DNA from: Jatrophihabitans endophyticus
GTDB lineage: Bacteria > Actinomycetota > Actinomycetes > Mycobacteriales > Jatrophihabitantaceae
Assembly: GCF_900129455.1 (NCBI RefSeq)
Contig: NZ_FQVU01000004.1
Span: 124,001 to 188,000, forward strand
DNA length: 64,000 nt
Reading direction: 5' to 3'
Part shown: positions 12,656 to 23,316 of the stretch, piece after piece
Layout: the number at the start of each line of letters is the position of its first letter
How positions within the stretch are numbered: position 1 is the first letter of the stretch
Notes under the pieces: generated by a model
Databases searched by the model: none
Told to the model about the DNA's origin: nothing
Seen by the model: the letters and a program-made list of their open reading frames with translations, nothing else
Program-made: the position numbers and the translations under genes

Positions 12656-12747
12656 GTCGCCAGCTTCTCACGATCCGGACGAACCCGCCGGGGCAGGACG
12701 GCCCGCGTTGCTACGCTCGCAAGGATGACGCAGGGGAGGTGACGGCC

Positions 12748-14703
12748 GTGGCGCGAACGCGCCGGTCCCAGGCTGCCCACCACGACCTCTTCCCGGGTTT
12801 CGCCGATGTCACCGAGGTCGGCGCGGGGGCGATCGCCACCGTGTACTCGGCCCGCGAGACCGCCACCGATCGCCAGGTCGCGCTCAAGCTGCTCGCCGTG
12901 CGCGACGCCTCCCCGCAGACGCTCGAGACGTTCGAGCGCGAGGCCGCGGTGCTGGGCGCGCTGAGCGCGCACCCGAACATCGTCACCCTGCTCCGGACGA
13001 TGCGGACGCCCGACAACCGTCCGGTGCTCGTGCTCGAGCTCTGCGACGGCTCCGTCGGCGACCGCCACCGGCCGGGCTACGGCCTGCCGGTGCGCGACGT
13101 CGTCGCGCTGGGCGGCAAGATCGCCGGCGCGCTCGAGACCGCTCACCGCGCCGGCGTCCTGCACCGCGACGTCAAGCCGCAGAACATCCTCGTCACCCGC
13201 TTCGGCGAGCCCGCACTCGCGGACTTCGGCGTGGCGCGGTTGCAGTCGTCCACCCAGCTGACGAACGGCCTGTTCGACTTCACGACGCTGCACGTCGCGC
13301 CGGAACTGCTCGAAGGCGGCCCGGCCGGCCCTGCCACCGACGTCTACGAGCTGGCCTCGACGATGTACCAGCTCGTCGCCGGCTGGTCGGCGTTCCGGGC
13401 GTTCGAGGGGGAGGCGCCGGCGTCGGTGATCCTGCGCATCCTGCGCGACCCCGTGCGTCCGCTCGCCGAGAACCGCGCGCCGACGGCGCTGTCGGACCTG
13501 CTGATCCGCGCGATGGCCAAGCGGCCCGAGCAGCGACCGGCCAGCGCAGCGGAGTTCGCGAGCGCGCTGACCGAGGTCGAGGCCGCCTACGGCTGGCCGC
13601 GCACCGTCGCCGTGGTGGGTGCCGCCGCCGATCCCGCGGACGCGCGCAGCTTCGCCTCGCTGCCCGACGGCCTGCCGCCGCAGCCCGCCCCGGTCGTCCC
13701 CGTGAGCACGGCCGACTGGTCGGCGCCGACGCTCACCCAGCACGCGGGTGACGCCGCTCCCGAGCCGACGCCCCCGCCGGCCGAGGTGACGGTGCGGCGC
13801 TCGACGCTGCCGGGTGTGCCGCCCGCGGCGCCGCCGCCGGGGGTGCCGCCCGTGGTGCCGCCGCCCGGCGAGCCGCCGGCGGTACCGACGCCGGAGCCGG
13901 TCGTACCGACGCCGGAGCCGGTCGTGCCGACGCCGGAGCCGGTCGTGCCGACGCCGGAGCCGGTCGTGCCGACGCCGGAGCCGGTCGTGCCGACGCCGGA
14001 GCCGGTCGTGCCGACCCCCACGCCGGAGCCGCCGCCCGTGGAGCCCACGCCCGAGCCCACCCCCGAGCCGGGACCCCCGTCCGCCGCGCACAGCCCCGGC
14101 GTGCCGGCCGCCGAGCAGACGGTGCGTCGCTCGGCGCTGGCCGCACCGGCGACGGCGCGGCACGCGGCGCCGCCGACCGACGAGCCGTCCACCCGGCAAC
14201 CGGCCGCGGAGGAGACGGTGTCGCGCAGCTCGTTGCGCCACCTCGCCGTCGCCCCGGCACCCACGCCGGGCACGCAGGAGACGGTGTTCCGCTCGTCCCT
14301 CGACGGGTCGCGGGCGTTCCCGCCGCCCGCCGCGACTCCACCGCCGGTCGCGACTCCGCTGCCGGTCGCAGCGGCCACGCATCCCGACCTCGCCCTCGAC
14401 CCCGCCGCACTGCGGCGGCGCGTCACCATCCGAGCCGGCTCGGCGTCTTTGCAGGTGGACGAGCAGCGGCTCGTGCTGCGCTCGTGGCTGCGTCGCAGCG
14501 AGATCGCGTGGGCGGACGTCACCGGGTTCGAGACCCGTCACGAGGGCGTCGGGGCGCAGGGCAGCGGTGGTCACCTCGTCGCGCTCACCCGCACCGGGCC
14601 GGTCGAGCTGCCCGCCACCCGCCGCTCGATGGCCGACCTGCGCTACATGCAGGCCCTGCTCGAGGCCTACCGGCAGCGCGCGCAGTCCGGCGTGCGGCTG
14701 TAG
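12748..14703 (+). CDS. Serine/threonine protein kinase with repeat-rich tail and C-terminal PH-like domain
   Basis: A 651-residue kinase. Residues 15-275 form a Hanks-type domain: glycine loop GAGAIATVY (25-33), Lys47 in VALKLL, catalytic HRDVKPQN (139-146), DFG (159-161) and an APE motif. Residues 280-560 are Pro/Thr-rich and probably disordered, with six tandem TPEPVVP units and four TVxRSxL motifs. Residues about 565-650 look like a bacterial PH-type domain (VTIRAGSASLQVDEQRL). No membrane helix is present, so it should be cytosolic, unlike PASTA kinases. GTG 12748 is chosen for the GGGGAGG eight bases upstream. It faces the MoxR/DUF58/transglutaminase genes tail to tail. Confidence 0.85.
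   Translation: MARTRRSQAAHHDLFPGFADVTEVGAGAIATVYSARETATDRQVALKLLAVRDASPQTLETFEREAAVLGALSAHPNIVTLLRTMRTPDNRPVLVLELCDGSVGDRHRPGYGLPVRDVVALGGKIAGALETAHRAGVLHRDVKPQNILVTRFGEPALADFGVARLQSSTQLTNGLFDFTTLHVAPELLEGGPAGPATDVYELASTMYQLVAGWSAFRAFEGEAPASVILRILRDPVRPLAENRAPTALSDLLIRAMAKRPEQRPASAAEFASALTEVEAAYGWPRTVAVVGAAADPADARSFASLPDGLPPQPAPVVPVSTADWSAPTLTQHAGDAAPEPTPPPAEVTVRRSTLPGVPPAAPPPGVPPVVPPPGEPPAVPTPEPVVPTPEPVVPTPEPVVPTPEPVVPTPEPVVPTPEPVVPTPTPEPPPVEPTPEPTPEPGPPSAAHSPGVPAAEQTVRRSALAAPATARHAAPPTDEPSTRQPAAEETVSRSSLRHLAVAPAPTPGTQETVFRSSLDGSRAFPPPAATPPPVATPLPVAAATHPDLALDPAALRRRVTIRAGSASLQVDEQRLVLRSWLRRSEIAWADVTGFETRHEGVGAQGSGGHLVALTRTGPVELPATRRSMADLRYMQALLEAYRQRAQSGVRL
13884..14009 (+). repeat. Six tandem 21-bp coding repeats
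   Basis: Six near-identical 21-bp units (ACC/GCC-GACGCCGGAGCC-...) encode VPTPEPV repeats in the kinase linker; a seventh, altered unit follows. The units differ by one base at their first position only, so expansion is recent and copy number may vary between strains. Confidence 0.9.
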
Positions 14704-14743: not shown

Positions 14744-17245
14744 TCAGTGCCGGCGGTGCCGCCCGCGTCGCGTCCGTCGCGGCCGGCGCCGCGACTCCCG
14801 CCGCTGCGCCATCGACTCCGCCCACGACGCGGGGCCCGCCACCGCAGCGCCCGTCCGGACCCGGTGGTAGCGCAGGCCCGAGCCGACGCGCTGGCGCAGC
14901 GTCTGGGCGTGACGTACCCGACGGCGCAGGTCGGCGTGCTCGCGCCAGGCGGCGTCGGCCTCCGCGACGCCCACCGTCGAGGCGGGGTCGAAGATGGCGC
15001 GGTTGGCGGCGTCGCCGACGGCCCGGGTGCGCGCCGCGGTCTCGCCGTCGAACCGGCGCGCGGTCGCCTCGCCGACCTCGGCGCTGGTGAAGCTCGTCGC
15101 GTCGCCCAACCCCGACTCGGCGAGGACGTCGAGCGTCTCCTGCCACGCGCCGATCACCTGCTCGCGCGGCGCGCCGCGGCGGCGTCGTCGCAGCCGCAGT
15201 TGCTTGCGCAGCAGCAGCGCGACGGGCACGAGCAGCAGCAGTACCGCGACCACCACCACGGCGATCAGCCACCACCCGGCCGACGGGCCGCGCGAGCCCG
15301 GGACGTCGCTGCGCGGGGCGACCGCGTTGCCGTTGTCCGACGGCGCCTGGGTGGCGAGCGCGTTCGGCGTGGACGACGGGCTCGGCGACGGGGTCGGCCG
15401 AGCGCTCACGCTCGGCGCCGGGCGCTGGTTGGAGTAGGTCGAGGGGGTCGCGTCCAGCACGACCCACCCGCGCCCGGCGATGGGGATCTCCACCCACGTC
15501 CAGGCCTGCTTGTCGGTGACGTCGTAGGTGCCGGCGGGCACGGTGTCGCCCGTGCCCGAGCCGAGGCGGAAGCCGGACACGAGCCGGGCCGGCACCCCCT
15601 GGGCGCGCGCCAGCAACGTCACCAGCGTCGCGTACTGCTCGGGCGTCGCGGAGCGGGTCGGTCCGAGGATCGAGGCGAGCACGCCGGCGAACGCGGTACC
15701 GCCCGTGCTCGGGTTGGTGCTCGTCGAGCGGGTCGGTGCCGGCGTGGTCGACGCCGGCGCCGTGGCCGACGTCCCGGCCGAGGGTGCCGTGCTCGCCGGG
15801 CCGCCCGAGAGCGAGTAGTGGGTGCGCAGGTCGCGTACGAGCGCCCGCAGGAACGTCACCGCCGACGCGCCCCGCGTCTTCGTCTCGTTCTGCAGCGAGG
15901 TCAGCACGGTGCCCAACGAGCGGCGGACGGACGGCGGCAGGGCGGTGTCCGCCGGTGGGGCGGACGTCCCCGGTGTCGCCGAGCGCGGCAGGCTCTCGAA
16001 ACTGCCGCGCGGCGTGGCCGACATGACGGTGTAGCTCTGCCCGGCCCGCAGTGGCTCGCCGGGCACGATCATGCCGCTGGTGGGCTCGGTGGCGATCGGG
16101 ACGCCGCTGACGTCCTGCGGCCGGTACTGGAAGGGCAGCCACGGCGCGCCGGCGAGCGGGCCGGCGTCGATCGTGTAGCGCTGGGCGACCGAGCCGCCCT
16201 TCGGTCGCAGGCTCGGGTCGGTGTCGGCGGGGACGACGCCACCGGACGGCCGGAACTCGCGCTCGAAGGCCCAGGCGTCGCCGTCGTACACGTCGGTGTC
16301 GGCGATCGCGACGTACCGCGACGCGGTCTCTTCGAACGAGACGCCGAAGAGCCGGTGCGCCCGCGCCCGCGGATCGGTGGGCCGCAGTCCCGCGACGAAG
16401 GCGACCGGGGTCAGCGGGCCGCTGCGCTCGACGGGGGGCAGCCGCTCGGCCGAGGCCGGCGACCCCGAGAACGCACTGCTCTGCACGACCAGTGCCGCGA
16501 CCGCCGCGACCGCGACGGCGACGCCCGCGCCGGCGGCGAGCGTGCGCAGCGGCAGCACCACCCGATCGGTCGCGACCGGCAGCCCGGTGAGGCTCGGTGC
16601 CGAGCGCGGCGCCTGCTGACCCTGCGCGACGGCGTTCGCCGCGCTGGTGCTCGCGTCCTGGTCGAGCCACGCCTGGACGGCGCGCAGCACCAGCAGCGTC
16701 GCCAGCAGTGCACCGGCGAGCAGCGTGTCGTAGCACCGGCCGTCGTCGGCGTCGGTGATCGCGCGCGTCGTCGCCGCGTACGCGAGGCCGAACGTCACCA
16801 GGGCGGTCGCCGACGGCACGAGCGTCGGCCAGCCTCGACCGAGGCACTCGCCGATGATCGCGCCGCACAGCCAGCACAGCGCGATCGGGGCGACCAGCAA
16901 CGTCCGCGGGCTGACCAGGGGCAGCGCGAAGGTGAGGATCTGCGACGGGCCGTGCACCAGCCCGTCCCACAGCGAGGAGAAGCCGAACGGCTCGCGCAGC
17001 GTCACGAGCGTCGTGAAGAACACGAACCCGGCGAGGTCGACGAGCGCGGTCAACCACAGCGTGCGGACGCCGATCGCGACGACGACGACGGGGAGCAGCA
17101 CGCTGATCAGCGCCGTGCCGACGAGCGGCACCGCCATGACGTCGGCGGGGAACGCGCGCAGCCAGGGCGCGCTCGCGAGCACGCACAGGACGAGGGCCAG
17201 GGGCAGCACGAGTAGCGGCAGGGACCGGCGCAACCGCGTGTTCAC
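14744..17245 (-). CDS. TgpA/DUF3488-type membrane protein with inactive-looking transglutaminase domain
   Basis: An 833-residue protein: about six N-terminal helices (to about residue 190), another helix near 205-255, a large outer domain, a transglutaminase-like core (about 495-610), a Pro/Ser linker, a further helix (WWLIAVVVVAVLLLLVPVALLL, about 640-665) and a basic cytoplasmic tail. In active members the core has GxCxQ(F/Y)A and HAW(T/V)EV. Here the first reads ATPEQYATL and the second KQAWTWVEI, so catalytic Cys and His are Pro and Gln; the Asp strand (GWVVLDATP) remains. It is probably a non-catalytic binding module. Its GTG overlaps the DUF58 gene stop by four bases, showing coupled translation. 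Confidence 0.8.
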   Translation of the reverse strand: MNTRLRRSLPLLVLPLALVLCVLASAPWLRAFPADVMAVPLVGTALISVLLPVVVVAIGVRTLWLTALVDLAGFVFFTTLVTLREPFGFSSLWDGLVHGPSQILTFALPLVSPRTLLVAPIALCWLCGAIIGECLGRGWPTLVPSATALVTFGLAYAATTRAITDADDGRCYDTLLAGALLATLLVLRAVQAWLDQDASTSAANAVAQGQQAPRSAPSLTGLPVATDRVVLPLRTLAAGAGVAVAVAAVAALVVQSSAFSGSPASAERLPPVERSGPLTPVAFVAGLRPTDPRARAHRLFGVSFEETASRYVAIADTDVYDGDAWAFEREFRPSGGVVPADTDPSLRPKGGSVAQRYTIDAGPLAGAPWLPFQYRPQDVSGVPIATEPTSGMIVPGEPLRAGQSYTVMSATPRGSFESLPRSATPGTSAPPADTALPPSVRRSLGTVLTSLQNETKTRGASAVTFLRALVRDLRTHYSLSGGPASTAPSAGTSATAPASTTPAPTRSTSTNPSTGGTAFAGVLASILGPTRSATPEQYATLVTLLARAQGVPARLVSGFRLGSGTGDTVPAGTYDVTDKQAWTWVEIPIAGRGWVVLDATPSTYSNQRPAPSVSARPTPSPSPSSTPNALATQAPSDNGNAVAPRSDVPGSRGPSAGWWLIAVVVVAVLLLLVPVALLLRKQLRLRRRRRGAPREQVIGAWQETLDVLAESGLGDATSFTSAEVGEATARRFDGETAARTRAVGDAANRAIFDPASTVGVAEADAAWREHADLRRRVRHAQTLRQRVGSGLRYHRVRTGAAVAGPASWAESMAQRRESRRRPRRTRRGRHRRH

Positions 17246-18381
17246 GCCGTCACCTGCAGGTTCCAGGCAGCGGCCGCCTCGTCGGCGTCCTTGGCCACGA
17301 GCACGCGCACGCCGTGCGGCACCGGCCCGTCGCCGCGCTGCTCGGGGTCGAGCGAGACGAGGACGATGCGCTCGAAGCGCCGCCGCAGCCCGGCGAGGTA
17401 CGGCAGGCCGGCCGCGTCCAGGGCGCCGGTGACGACGACGAGCGAGGTCCCGCCGCGGGTCTGGCGCAGCGCCGTCAGCACCGTCTGCAGCGACCCGTCG
17501 GCGTCGGCGGAGAGCCCGGTCAGCTCGTCGACGAGCTCGGTGGGGTCACGCAGCCACGGGCCGCCGACGACGGTGCCGTCGGTGAGGCGCAGCTCGACCG
17601 GCGCGCGGTCGGTCGCCGCGGCGACGACCACCGACGCGGCGACGTCGACGGCCTCCTCGAACGACTCCTCGGTGTAGAGCCGGGGCCGCTGGTCGAACAC
17701 CACGACGGTGTAGGGCTGCGAGGTGTCGACGTTGTGGCGCACGAGCAGCCGTCCCGCACGGGCGGACGAGCGCCAGTGCACGAGCCGTACGTCGTCGCCC
17801 TCGGCGTACTCGCGCAGCCGGTGGAAGGTGACGTTGCCCTGGGGCGAGGAGTCCGAGGACGGCCCCTCGAGGTGACGGGTACGGCCGACCGGCAGCTGGC
17901 GCAGCCCCAGCACGCGCGGGTACACCCAGATGCGCTCGGTCCCGGCGTGGTGGCGGGAGAGCCGGAACAGCTCGAACGGGTCGCGGCGGGTGAGCTCGAG
18001 CGGCGGGACGTCGAAGATGCCGCGCCGCGTGGTGGGCAGCCGGTAGGCCCGGGTGCCGCTCTCGCCGCCGCGCAGGCGCGGGATCACCGTGCGCACCCGC
18101 TGCGAGCCGAACGGCTGGGTCGCGACGGCGACGGGGTGGCTGCGGCGGCTGCGGTTGGCGAAGGTGAGGAACGCGATGGCCGGTGAGCCCTTGGGGACCC
18201 GCGGCGGCTGGATCTCGCGCCCGATCGACAGCGGGGTGGGCCGGACGACGGTCGCGAGGCCGAGCAGCACGGCGGCGAGCAGCCCCAGGCCGAGCAGGTC
18301 GAAGGCCAGCCAGTCCAGCACCAGACCGAGCACCAGCGACGCGACGCCCGCGACGAGCGCGGCGATGCCGTAGGGCGTCAC
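17242..18381 (-). CDS. DUF58 domain protein
   Basis: A 379-residue protein with two N-terminal helices (ALVAGVASLVLGLVL and DLLGLGLLAAVLLGL) and a DUF58 domain (about 195-290) shown by the motif LVHWRSSARAGRLLVR. DUF58 proteins resemble von Willebrand A domains and nearly always lie beside a MoxR ATPase, as here. They are thought to be assembled or remodelled by MoxR at the membrane. The four-base overlap with the next gene and 31-bp gap after MoxR indicate one operon. Confidence 0.85.
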   Translation of the reverse strand: MTPYGIAALVAGVASLVLGLVLDWLAFDLLGLGLLAAVLLGLATVVRPTPLSIGREIQPPRVPKGSPAIAFLTFANRSRRSHPVAVATQPFGSQRVRTVIPRLRGGESGTRAYRLPTTRRGIFDVPPLELTRRDPFELFRLSRHHAGTERIWVYPRVLGLRQLPVGRTRHLEGPSSDSSPQGNVTFHRLREYAEGDDVRLVHWRSSARAGRLLVRHNVDTSQPYTVVVFDQRPRLYTEESFEEAVDVAASVVVAAATDRAPVELRLTDGTVVGGPWLRDPTELVDELTGLSADADGSLQTVLTALRQTRGGTSLVVVTGALDAAGLPYLAGLRRRFERIVLVSLDPEQRGDGPVPHGVRVLVAKDADEAAAAWNLQVTA

Positions 18382-18412: not shown

Positions 18413-19384
18413 TCAGCTTGCCGCGACCGCGCGCGGCACCTGGACCGACTGCACCGCCCGGGCGACGAGCTCGGTGCCGGTGCGGCCCTGCAGCTCGGCG
18501 TCGGGCTGCAGGATCACGCGGTGCGACAGCACGACCGGCGCCATCGCCTTGACGTCCTCGGGGATGACGTAGCTGCGTCCCGTCGCCGCGGCGCACGCGC
18601 GTGCCGCGCGGAGCAGGGCGAGGCTGCCGCGCGGCGAGACCCCGAGCCGCAGCTCGGACATCGTGCGGGTCGCCGTGGCCACGCCGACGATGTACTGCTC
18701 CAGCGCGGGCGCGACGTCGACGTCGCGGACGACGTCGATCATCGAGCGGACGTCGGCGTCGCTGAGAACCGGCGAGAGCTGCGCGACCGTCGAGCCCGAC
18801 TTCTGGGTGCGCAGGATCTCGGCCTCGGCCTCGGCGCTCGGGTACCCGACGGACACCTTCATCAGGAAGCGGTCGAGCTGGGCCTCGGGCAGGACGTAGG
18901 TGCCCTCCATGTCGATCGGGTTCTGCGTCGCCACCACCATGAACGGCCGCGGCATCTCGTAGCCGATGCCGTCGGCGGTGAGCGTGCCCTCCTCCATCAC
19001 CTCGAGCAGCGCCGACTGCGTCTTGGGCGAGGCGCGGTTGATCTCGTCGGCGAGCACCACGTTGGCGAAGACCGGGCCGGGCTTGAACTCGAAGCGCTGC
19101 GTCGCCTGGTTCCACACCGAGACGCCGGTGACGTCCGAGGGCAGCAGGTCGGGCGTGAACTGGATGCGGTGCCACGACAGCGAGATGGACGACGCGAGCG
19201 CGCGGGCCAGCGAGGTCTTGCCGGTGCCGGGGACGTCCTCGAGCAGCAGGTGCCCCTCGGCGAGCAGGCAGATCACGGCGTTGCGGACGACGTCCGGCTT
19301 GCCCTGCAGGACGTGGCCGATGTTCTGGCAGAGCCGGTCGACCCCGTGAGCGACGCGGGCGAAGCCGTCGGCGGGACCGGTCAC
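18413..19384 (-). CDS. MoxR-family AAA+ ATPase
   Basis: A 323-residue AAA+ ATPase with Walker A GTGKTSLARAL (about residues 55-65), Walker B VVLADEINRA (about 115-124), sensor 1 VVATQNP and the C-terminal GVSPRGSLALLRAARA lid. MoxR proteins act as chaperone-like remodelling factors for partner proteins with DUF58/VWA domains. A CCAGGAGG ribosome site precedes the GTG at 19384. It lies 58 bp after the large FN3 protein on the same strand, so all four genes may form one transcript. Confidence 0.9.
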   Translation of the reverse strand: MTGPADGFARVAHGVDRLCQNIGHVLQGKPDVVRNAVICLLAEGHLLLEDVPGTGKTSLARALASSISLSWHRIQFTPDLLPSDVTGVSVWNQATQRFEFKPGPVFANVVLADEINRASPKTQSALLEVMEEGTLTADGIGYEMPRPFMVVATQNPIDMEGTYVLPEAQLDRFLMKVSVGYPSAEAEAEILRTQKSGSTVAQLSPVLSDADVRSMIDVVRDVDVAPALEQYIVGVATATRTMSELRLGVSPRGSLALLRAARACAAATGRSYVIPEDVKAMAPVVLSHRVILQPDAELQGRTGTELVARAVQSVQVPRAVAAS

Positions 19385-19442: not shown

Positions 19443-22400
19443 CTACGACGTGGGGGGATCCCCGGTCACGGTGGGCTTCGCGTCGCCGCTGGTGCCGTTC
19501 GGGTTGTTCCACGAGACGGCGACCGACCAGTCACCGCTGCTGGGGGCGGTGCCGCAGGTCAGCGTGATGTTCGGCGCGGGCGAGTCCGCGGGCGATCCGG
19601 TCGTCGTGCCGCAGGACGTGCCGTCCGGGGCGAGCAGCTCGTATCTCCAGCCGGTGCACCCGGCGAGCGAGCCGGTGGCGCCGACGGTCACGCCGTCGGC
19701 GATCGTCGCACCCCAGGTGGCGGTCACGTCGCTCGCCGCGACGGTGCACGGCTGGTAGCTCGGCGGCCCACCGCTCAGCGGGATCCTGTCGACCGAGTGC
19801 CCGCCGCCGTCGGTGGTGTTGCGGTAGGTCAGCGAGACGTACCAGCCGCTCTGGTCGCCGTAGGGCTGCACGCAGTCGCCGGCCGAGACGGTCGTCGGGT
19901 TCGGCTCGCTGTTCGACGTGCCGCAGACGCTGCCGTCGGGGGCGTGCAGCGTGAGCGCCCAGCCGGTGGTGAGCGCGTCGAGGTTGGCGCTGCCGGTGTA
20001 GTTCACGCGGGCGCTGGAGCCGGAGTCCGGCCAGGCGGCGGCGAAGTCGCCGGCGGCGAGGTCGAGCGACGCCGGCGCGCCGAGCGAGACGTCGACGGTC
20101 TTGAGTGGCGACGGAACGCCGCCGTAGAGCAGCGTCCCCCCGGACGTCTCGACGACACCGGCGGTGACGGTGCAGCTGCCGTAGTAGTTCTGCAGCTGCG
20201 ACACACCCTTGACGGTGGCCGTGAGCGAGCCGCTGTCGAAGCTGCCGTCGGTCAGCCGCAGCGTGGCCTCGCCGCAGCGCAGCACGCTGCCGTCGGCCAG
20301 CGCGAACGTCTCGCCGTTCGTCGGGAACCCACCCAGCGTTACGGCAAGGGTGCAGGTGAGGTCGAGTGACGACGAGCGCGGGCACGACGCCGAGACCGAC
20401 GGGGTCGGCCAGGTGGCGCGGGCGGTCACGCCGTCCGCGGTGACCGACACCGCGGCGGCCGGGTGCCCGGGCGGGCTCACCGTCGCCTTCGCGGTGTAGG
20501 TGACGCCGGGCTTCGCGTCGGCGAAGGTGTGGGTGAGCGTCGACGCCCGTCCGCTGACGACGGTGGTGTAGGTCTGGTCGCTCCCGCCGCCGCTCAGCGT
20601 GAAGGTGACCTTGGCGCCGACACCGCCGACGGCGGCGATCGGGTCGCTGCCCAGGCTCAGGCTCACCGTCGTCGAGCTGGTGGCGCCGACCGCGGCGTCG
20701 GCCGGCTTGCTGGCGGTGAGGCGCAGGTCGCCGGCGCGCGGCGGCGCCCAGCTGGTGACGCAGCCGGTGCTGGCCGAGGGGGTGCCGACGGTGCCGTCGG
20801 TGCCGATGCCCTCGACCTGGAAGCGCAGGCCGCGGCCGAGCAGCGCGCTGCCGCCGCGCAGGACCGCGGCGGGTTGCACCGTCGTGGTCGGGTCGGCCGG
20901 GGCGTCGATCGCCGCCGGGGCGGTCGAGAGCCCGAGGCCGTCGCAGAACTGCGGGACGACCCGCCACGACGCGCTCGGGACGCAGCCGGCCGACACCGTG
21001 CCGCAGGAACGCCAGCCGATGCTCCAGTTGCCGGAGCTGTCGGCCCGCGCGGTGACGGTGCGCGGTGCGGCCGGGCCCTCGGGACCGGTGGTGACGCGGA
21101 TCGGGGCGGACGACGTCCCCTTGCCGTTGATGTAGGCCGTGACGGTCAGCTCGTACAGCGTCGAGGGGAACAGCCCGGCGAGGTTCACGCTCTGCTGGCC
21201 GTCCACCGTCACGCGCGACGGCGGTTGCGGCGCGCCGGCCCGCAGCGATCGCACGGTGACGACATACGTCCTCGGGACACAGTCGGTGCGGTCGGTGATG
21301 GGATACGTCCACGCCAGCGCGACCGAGCGGGAACCGGGGGTGGAGGTGGTGAAGGCCGGGATGTGCGGCTTCTGCGACGTCGTCGAGCAGTCGACGAGGT
21401 TGGTGACCGGCGCGACCGGCTTCGGCGCGGCGGTCGACCGGCCGGGCTGCGGTGTCGGCACGTCGTCGTTGCGGCTGCGGGTCAACGCCTCGGCGCCGCC
21501 CCCGCTGGAGATCGTCACCGCGGCGCTCTTGTCGATGCGCACCGGCCGCCGGCTGCCGTCGGTGAAGACGCCGACCGCGAGCTGGTGGTTGGGGGAGTTG
21601 ACGATGACCCGCGGCCCGCGTGCCACGACGTACGCGTCGCCGAAGCCCGCGGCCTCGACGGCGCGACCGTCCTGGCGGGCGACGGGGTAGGAGGCCAGGC
21701 CGGGCAGGCGCTCGGCGCTCCCGTCGAGGCCGATGCGCCAGAGGCCGCCGGACGCGGCGCCGAGGGTGTACAGCGACCCGCCGCTGACGGCGGGCGTCAC
21801 CAGCCGCGCGCCGGCCGGGACGTTGCCGAGCGGCGTCGGGCCGCGCAGGCCCGTGCCGTCCGGCGCGACCGAGACGACGCTCCATCCCCTGCTGCCGTGC
21901 AGCAGGAACGCGATGCGCGACGAGGCGTTGGTGGCCGCGAGCACGGTGTCGACGCCGGCCGGCGCCGCGTACCGGGCGGTGCGCTGCTGCCCGTCGCCCC
22001 AGAAGACGGTGATGTGGTCGCGGGCGGCGACGGCGACCGGGCTGTCGACGGTGCCGGTGGTCTTGACGTCGGTGGTGGCGTTCGCGACGCCGGTGAACTC
22101 GTCGAGCGAGGCGACCGCGGCCGGGCCGTCGACGGTCGCGGCCCGCTGCGAGCGCAGCCGCGCGCCGGTGGCGCTGTCCGCGGGCAGCGACAGGTGCCGC
22201 AACGTACGGGTCGAGCCGGTGCCGGCCAGCACCCACAGGTCGTTGCCGGCCGTGGCGGCCGTGCCCGGGGCGCTGCTGACCTGATCGGGCAGCGAGAGGA
22301 ACGCGCGCGGTCGGGCGGTGGCGCCACTCGCCGCGCCCTGCACGGTCGTCGCGCCGACCAGGTAGACCGACGTTCCGGTCGGTCCCGTGCGCTGCACGTA

Positions 22401-22892
22401 GGCGAAGTCGCGGGCGGCGACGGCGCTCGCGCCCGTGGCGCCGGCGCGTCGCGGCAGCGGCACACCGCCGTCCTTCTTGAGCACGAAGCCGGTCGAGTCG
22501 ACGATGTTGAACTCGCCGGTCTGCTTGTCCAGCAGCAGGGCGCCGTCGGCCATCGGCTCGACGGCGACGTCCTCGGCGCGCTGCGCGCCGACCTGCGCGC
22601 TGGCGTCCACCAGGCGCACGGTGGGCCGGCCCGAGGCGAGGTCCACCGACACCGGTGCGACCGCGTCGGCGAGCAGCACCGACCCGCCGAACAGGTCGAA
22701 GGAACGGGCGTCGTCGGGCTCGACGAGGTAGGAGACCGCGGCGACGCTGCCGCAGACGACGGCGAGGGCGGCCAGCAGGGCGACGGCCTGGCGTCGGGAC
22801 GGGCGAGCGGCGAGCGACCCGTCGGTGCGCCGCGAGCCCGACCCGGGAGCGGTCGAGAACGCCGCGGCGTCGCGCCATCGCGCTCCCACCAT
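19443..22892 (-). CDS. Large exported FN3/Ig-like repeat protein
   Basis: A 1149-residue protein. A single hydrophobic segment near residues 35-55 (AVALLAALAVVCGSVAAVSYL) after a basic cytoplasmic tail makes it a type II membrane-anchored or signal-anchored protein. Residues about 60-480 form a beta-propeller-like series of repeats; about 505-600 and 605-720 are fibronectin type III domains; the rest is Ig-like, with many Cys pairs. No enzyme motif is seen. ATG 22892 is chosen for its GAGGAGG; an upstream start at 22955 is possible. Its place before moxR suggests the envelope-exposed partner of that system. Confidence 0.75.
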   Translation of the reverse strand: MVGARWRDAAAFSTAPGSGSRRTDGSLAARPSRRQAVALLAALAVVCGSVAAVSYLVEPDDARSFDLFGGSVLLADAVAPVSVDLASGRPTVRLVDASAQVGAQRAEDVAVEPMADGALLLDKQTGEFNIVDSTGFVLKKDGGVPLPRRAGATGASAVAARDFAYVQRTGPTGTSVYLVGATTVQGAASGATARPRAFLSLPDQVSSAPGTAATAGNDLWVLAGTGSTRTLRHLSLPADSATGARLRSQRAATVDGPAAVASLDEFTGVANATTDVKTTGTVDSPVAVAARDHITVFWGDGQQRTARYAAPAGVDTVLAATNASSRIAFLLHGSRGWSVVSVAPDGTGLRGPTPLGNVPAGARLVTPAVSGGSLYTLGAASGGLWRIGLDGSAERLPGLASYPVARQDGRAVEAAGFGDAYVVARGPRVIVNSPNHQLAVGVFTDGSRRPVRIDKSAAVTISSGGGAEALTRSRNDDVPTPQPGRSTAAPKPVAPVTNLVDCSTTSQKPHIPAFTTSTPGSRSVALAWTYPITDRTDCVPRTYVVTVRSLRAGAPQPPSRVTVDGQQSVNLAGLFPSTLYELTVTAYINGKGTSSAPIRVTTGPEGPAAPRTVTARADSSGNWSIGWRSCGTVSAGCVPSASWRVVPQFCDGLGLSTAPAAIDAPADPTTTVQPAAVLRGGSALLGRGLRFQVEGIGTDGTVGTPSASTGCVTSWAPPRAGDLRLTASKPADAAVGATSSTTVSLSLGSDPIAAVGGVGAKVTFTLSGGGSDQTYTTVVSGRASTLTHTFADAKPGVTYTAKATVSPPGHPAAAVSVTADGVTARATWPTPSVSASCPRSSSLDLTCTLAVTLGGFPTNGETFALADGSVLRCGEATLRLTDGSFDSGSLTATVKGVSQLQNYYGSCTVTAGVVETSGGTLLYGGVPSPLKTVDVSLGAPASLDLAAGDFAAAWPDSGSSARVNYTGSANLDALTTGWALTLHAPDGSVCGTSNSEPNPTTVSAGDCVQPYGDQSGWYVSLTYRNTTDGGGHSVDRIPLSGGPPSYQPCTVAASDVTATWGATIADGVTVGATGSLAGCTGWRYELLAPDGTSCGTTTGSPADSPAPNITLTCGTAPSSGDWSVAVSWNNPNGTSGDAKPTVTGDPPTS

Positions 22893-23316
22893 CGAGCCTC
22901 CTCGCTCTCCCGTCACCGCCGTCACTGCACCTCGGGGCACCCGCCGTGCGGGCACTGCGGCGGCGGCCGCGACACGTCACCGGCATGACGTGGGGCCGCG
23001 GTTAAGAGAGTAGTCGAGGAAACGAAGATTTCACCTCACCCGTCCAAATCGGGACGAGATCGCGACCGCGCGCCCGCGGACGGGCTCCCGAACCACGCGG
23101 CGGACGTCGCCGCGCGCCCCCCGGGGCCCGCCGGTTCGCGTGCGGATCGCGGCCACCCCCCGGCCCTCGTGCCGCGGTGCGGGACTATTCTTCGGTGGAC
23201 GTGCGCGACCGACGTGGTGGAGTGCGTCGAGCAGCGGCCGAGCGGTTGCACCGCGAGCGCACGACCGAGCACGAACCAGGCACCGAACCAGGCACGCAGC
23301 ACAGCAAGGGGACCGT
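22893..23316. other. 424-bp divergent intergenic region
   Basis: Separates the FN3 protein from ctaD. It is less GC-rich around 23000-23040 (GTTAAGAGAG ... GAAGATTTCACC), where the minus-strand promoter for the FN3 gene is likely. For ctaD a TATTCT box at 23186-23191 is a candidate -10 without a good -35, which would give a leader of about 120 nt. No ORF or RNA that I can support. Confidence 0.4.

Follow-up and report, generated by a model that had tools for sequence, protein, structure and literature searches.

Transglutaminase activity has been assayed on the periplasmic domain of TgpA, a membrane protein of Pseudomonas aeruginosa (PMC3507681). In Bifidobacterium, passages of the papers on the PFNA cluster give its genes as pkb2, fn3, aaa-atp, duf58 and tgm, and name tgm as a putative transglutaminase or a presumed cysteine protease. 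According to the same passages, the Bifidobacterium kinase phosphorylates the MoxR protein of the cluster, and bifidobacterial PFNA clusters are described as host-signal sensing systems; these passages contain no discussion of the catalytic residues of the tgm protein. For MoxR-vWA systems, a proposal in the literature has the vWA domain capturing a peptide, which is subsequently released by MoxR.

We analyzed a stretch of 64,000 nucleotides from Jatrophihabitans endophyticus (the window; contig NZ_FQVU01000004.1, positions 124,001 to 188,000), which encodes a membrane protein of the TgpA type, hereafter called TGM. Judging from sequence comparisons and a predicted structure, TGM is almost certainly a catalytically dead transglutaminase, that is, a pseudoenzyme.

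Gene cluster and domains of TGM

The TGM gene (positions 14744..17245, minus strand) is an intact open reading frame encoding 833 aa, and its assignment as a full-length TgpA-type pseudo-transglutaminase draws on the reading frame, Pfam, alignments and a structural model. It is the last of four minus-strand genes in tight, operon-like packing, following those for an FN3 protein (19443..22955, from the ORF list and Pfam), a MoxR AAA+ ATPase (18413..19384, with Walker motifs readable in the translation) and a DUF58 protein (17242..18381), and there is a 4-base overlap between its GTG start and the stop of the DUF58 gene. A Ser/Thr protein kinase gene on the plus strand (12739..14703) converges on TGM, with 40 bases between its end and the TGM stop. 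Pfam backs each of these five assignments. The kinase has Pro-rich repeats and a C-terminal bPH_6 domain, and a PVVPTPEP-type tandem repeat at positions 13814-14400 encodes the Pro-rich linker that precedes this domain. The host genome is 4.48 Mb, and its nearest named relatives are Jatrophihabitans genomes from metagenomes.

When TGM was searched as a single sequence, Transglut_core (residues 530-599, 45 bits versus a cut-off of 23) was the only Pfam family above its cut-off, and TgpA_N and DUF4129 were not matched. We also considered whether another Pfam family of inactive transglutaminases describes TGM better, and rejected this because no such match was found at E <= 1. A profile-profile comparison of the ortholog group with active TgpAs gave a far longer match (probability 100, E 9.5e-50, 675 columns) that spans the membrane bundle, outer domain, transmembrane helix and DUF4129 tail, and the predicted architecture is that of TgpA. 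The N-terminal, TgpA_N-like membrane bundle covers approximately residues 5-260 (16466..17233, minus strand, from helices in the model), the transglutaminase-like core covers residues 515-605 (15431..15703, minus strand, from Pfam, alignments and the model), and the last transmembrane helix (669-689) is followed by the DUF4129-like tail (693-795; together 14861..15241, minus strand). Positions of the core and of the catalytic columns below were counted from the TGM ORF start at 17245.

An AlphaFold model of TGM has a mean pLDDT of 70 and a pTM of 0.45, which makes the packing of domains in this full-length model unreliable, and the core blocks reach pLDDT 76-91. Foldseek ranked TgpA first (6g49, E 2.3e-9), and VIA-align superposed the model on TgpA 6g4h with Z 17.9 and rmsd 4.0 over 242 residues (22% identity across the aligned part). 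The next VIA-align entry was a putative cysteine protease (3isr, Z 9.1), and erythrocyte protein 4.2 was also matched (7tvz, Z 6.2). A preliminary description, made by reading the window alone, had called TGM a transglutaminase-like envelope protein that keeps the landmarks of the fold, and both the Transglut_core score and this predicted fold agree with it.

The catalytic columns

The column that holds the catalytic Cys in active enzymes is occupied in TGM by Pro535 (15641-15643, minus strand), within S-A-T-P-E-Q-Y-A. The catalytic His column is occupied by Trp582 (15500-15502), where TGM reads Q-A-W-T-W-V-E versus D-A-H-A-W-V-E, and the catalytic Asp is retained as Asp598 (15452-15454). When a profile of ten orthologs was compared with PDB sequences, the single confident match was P. 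aeruginosa TgpA (6g49, E 8.8e-9), and in this HMM alignment the TgpA segment RSGFCAHYAGAM lies opposite rsatpeqyatlv and DAHAWVEY lies opposite dawtWvei. The register of Pro535 and Trp582 was the same in this alignment, in a MAFFT alignment with active paralogs and in a profile-profile alignment with ten active TgpAs. In the model, P535 opens helix 535-548, strand 581-589 has W582 near its beginning, and D598 comes directly after strand 593-597; these are the places of the triad in transglutaminases.

The loss of the catalytic Cys within T-P-E-Q, as first described, is thus borne out in all three alignments. The accompanying claim that His is replaced by Gln holds for the loss of His and fails for the substitute, which is Trp582; the Gln lies two residues away. 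The original register was wrong because the second Trp of WTW, not the first, is the conserved Trp of the family. That two of three catalytic residues are replaced while the rest is well kept proved accurate, with Asp598 retained (a retention that may be structural) and the neighboring motifs preserved. A frameshift or annotation error was considered as the cause of the triad loss and rejected, since the reading frame is intact.

The error in the His register could hint that the whole result is an artefact of alignment, with the true Cys and His located elsewhere. However, the outer domain of TGM (approximately residues 278-605) has no Cys at all, and all five Cys that TGM contains fall within the membrane bundle, at residues 21-171, from where none could serve outside. 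An alternative Cys and His, which the preliminary description had named as a finding that would overturn it, was sought in the predicted structure and in the corrected alignments, and none was found. Together with the agreement of three alignment methods, this makes an artefact extremely improbable.

Conservation, paralogs and gene neighborhoods

We then compared TGM with 18 relatives from the same kind of gene cluster, in an alignment of 19 rows in which the orthologs are 28-59% identical to TGM and two pairs are near-copies. The Cys column holds Pro in 18 of these rows and Ala in one, and the His column holds Trp (15/19), Thr (3/19) or Tyr (1/19). Asp is present in every row, both Cys and His are absent from every row, and 18 of the 19 outer domains are free of Cys and so have no substitute for the lost residue. 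The proposal of a conserved pseudoenzyme is therefore upheld. With both residues missing from all 19 rows, the loss goes beyond chance. In single-sequence Pfam searches, Transglut_core was found in all 19 orthologs, and TgpA_N and DUF4129 were each found in 6/19.

The core is the best-conserved segment of the 19 rows, with a mean pairwise identity of 57% versus 41% for the whole alignment. When 22 active TgpAs are taken as the reference, the dead group has fixed T534, P535, T557, R560, T583 and P588, all of them core positions that surround the former catalytic site (position T557 is Ser in TGM itself), and the two groups have Q537, R547, G550, P552, R554, W584, E586 and W594 in common. The residues fixed around the old site suggest a selected surface and speak against decay. 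Loss of two catalytic residues is what would be expected of a gene decaying in one lineage on its way to being lost. This reading is contradicted by the conservation, because the reading frame is intact, the changes are fixed throughout the orthologs, the core is the segment most strongly kept and gene order is preserved; we give it negligible weight.

Another possibility is that the site still supports catalysis by a mechanism that dispenses with a thiol and relies on Asp598, on Glu536 or on newly acquired residues, Arg560 among them. In favor of this idea, Glu536 and Gln537, like Asp598, are invariant among the orthologs, and the site has gained fixed neighbors of its own. However, the Pro at the start of the helix offers no nucleophile, the variation among Trp, Thr and Tyr leaves no conserved general base in the His column, and the Glu-Gln pair and the Asp position are kept in active relatives too, where Glu often takes the place of Asp. 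We regard catalysis of this kind as very improbable.

The host genome encodes six Transglut_core proteins above the cut-off, five of which (including TGM) belong to MoxR-DUF58 modules. One paralog (L046, on contig C3 at about 351 kb) has the active triad of Cys, His and Asp. Three others are degenerate, with Ser, Gln and Asp (L047), Asp, His and Ala (L048) or Ala, Thr and Ala (L049) in the triad columns and with TSEQ, DDEQ and TAEQ, respectively, replacing xCxQ; their modules lie on contigs C3 and C4. Since it has four dead MoxR-DUF58-TgpA modules beside an active one, this genome offers a natural comparison for studying the function of MoxR and DUF58.

An unrooted tree was built from 48 outer domains (22 active and 26 dead) after removal of the catalytic columns. 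One branch separates active from dead proteins with support of 93/96; the split was present in 95% of bootstrap trees, and none of 500 shuffles gave a value as low. It persisted with weaker support (88/54) when the three longest-branched rows were left out together with seven columns flanking every catalytic residue. The tree suggests one old loss of catalysis followed by diversification, which is the simplest reading of these sequences. A broader version of this proposal is that a single ancient loss gave rise to a large lineage of dead TgpAs in actinobacteria, that these proteins multiplied into several MoxR-DUF58 modules per genome and act as envelope receptors, and that the lineage includes the PFNA “transglutaminase” in general. 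We offer the broader version tentatively, as possible but somewhat doubtful.

Neighborhoods were surveyed by tblastn with the window proteins. Named contigs, some of them from Acidimicrobiaceae, contributed 12 loci with the order MoxR-DUF58-TGM, and three complete genomes from the family of the host showed this order too. FN3 and/or the kinase is present in 12 of these 15 loci, and several of the remaining loci are short contigs. In the window and in most loci, the kinase gene converges on the others from the opposite strand; in L040 and L044 it shares their strand. The contig of L044 (JAGWSF010000230.1) is labeled Acidobacteriota and carries an actinobacterial PFNA-like cluster, reflecting either transfer or mis-binning. 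Split matches in one genome (G006) raised the possibility of a broken gene, which was rejected because the matches lie at contig ends and the copy at L036 is open to the end of its contig.

From a draw of 60 genomes of the phylum, 12 further TgpA loci were recovered with MoxR and DUF58 present. A full triad of Cys, His and Asp or Glu is found in 10 of these 12 loci, and none of the 12 has a match to the FN3 protein or kinase of the window. An alignment query against genome contigs yielded 16 loci, whereas a single-protein query against the same contigs yielded no matches. Viral contigs that were searched gave no match, and plasmids gave one weak match from Nonomuraea. A distant homolog of TGM lies beside MoxR and DUF58 in Embleya hyalina (L045, 10001-11275), with Val, Thr and Asp in the triad columns, and these residues place dead TgpAs in Streptomycetaceae as well.

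Possible function and comparison with known systems

Despite a name that implies an enzyme, the dead group probably serves an ATPase complex as a binding or scaffold component. We propose that the former substrate cleft in the outer pseudo-core of TGM would bind a ligand of the envelope, be it a peptide, a stem peptide of peptidoglycan or the neighboring FN3 protein, and that the state of the pseudo-core would be relayed through the transmembrane helices to the DUF4129-like tail. At the tail, the complex could then be remodeled by the MoxR ATPase and the DUF58 protein with its vWA fold, both of them possibly set by the Ser/Thr kinase. The preliminary description had likewise suggested a peptide or peptidoglycan binder controlled by MoxR and DUF58, and such a role is plausible. 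The full account, in which TGM is a dead TgpA that spans the membrane as one subunit of the MoxR-DUF58 module in a PFNA-like cluster and acts by this ligand mechanism, seems to us reasonably probable.

The model of the DUF58 protein has two N-terminal helices, a beta domain and a domain of the vWA fold (Z about 13). Its MIDAS is degenerate, with the first Asp as the only residue remaining (FDQRP), and the Ser positions are likewise lost in related loci. Judged from this motif and the model, the DUF58 partner may not bind metal.

The chief alternative to ligand binding is that the pseudo-core is a scaffold only, which, like the protein 4.2 of red cells, positions membrane partners and lacks any pocket for a ligand. 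The presence of protein 4.2 among the structural matches favors this idea, as does the conservation of the membrane bundle and tail in the 19 rows. However, the residues peculiar to the clade that surround the former cleft are fixed and have not drifted, which suggests a selected surface there, although a scaffold contact at that surface is possible. We consider a pure scaffold fairly unlikely, and the ligand-binding account remains our preferred reading.

TgpA of P. aeruginosa (PA2873; PDB 6g49/6g4h) resembles TGM in architecture and in the fold of the outer domain. It keeps the Cys-His-Asp triad, whereas in TGM the Cys is replaced by Pro and the His by Trp. The window has the same five kinds of genes as the PFNA cluster and the same fn3-aaa-duf58-tgm order, a likeness of gene kinds and gene order. 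Unlike the kinase of the PFNA operon, the kinase in the window is convergent, lies on the other strand and carries bPH_6. Our comparison, made with relatives from outside Bifidobacterium, raises the question whether “tgm”, a name that implies an enzyme, suits the PFNA clusters. If the wider family is catalytically dead, looking for substrates of the tgm product is misdirected, and this protein should be studied as a receptor or scaffold.

In the literature that we searched, which mostly excludes subscription papers, we found no account of TgpAs that are dead and belong to PFNA or MoxR-DUF58 clusters. Inactive transglutaminases of bacteria are already known from polymorphic toxins, where peptide binding has been suggested (PMC3482391), and from a 7TM inner-membrane protein of Shewanella, disruption of which raises vesicle production (PMC12096838). 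Both share with TGM a transglutaminase fold with a lost triad, and their architectures differ from that of TGM (RHS toxins and a 7TM protein). Erythrocyte protein 4.2 (EPB42) also has a catalytically inactive transglutaminase fold like that of TGM (PMC10318531; 7tvz), but it is eukaryotic and its gene context is unrelated. Against these known examples, the dead TgpA of a MoxR-DUF58, PFNA-like cluster is a new form of inactive transglutaminase.
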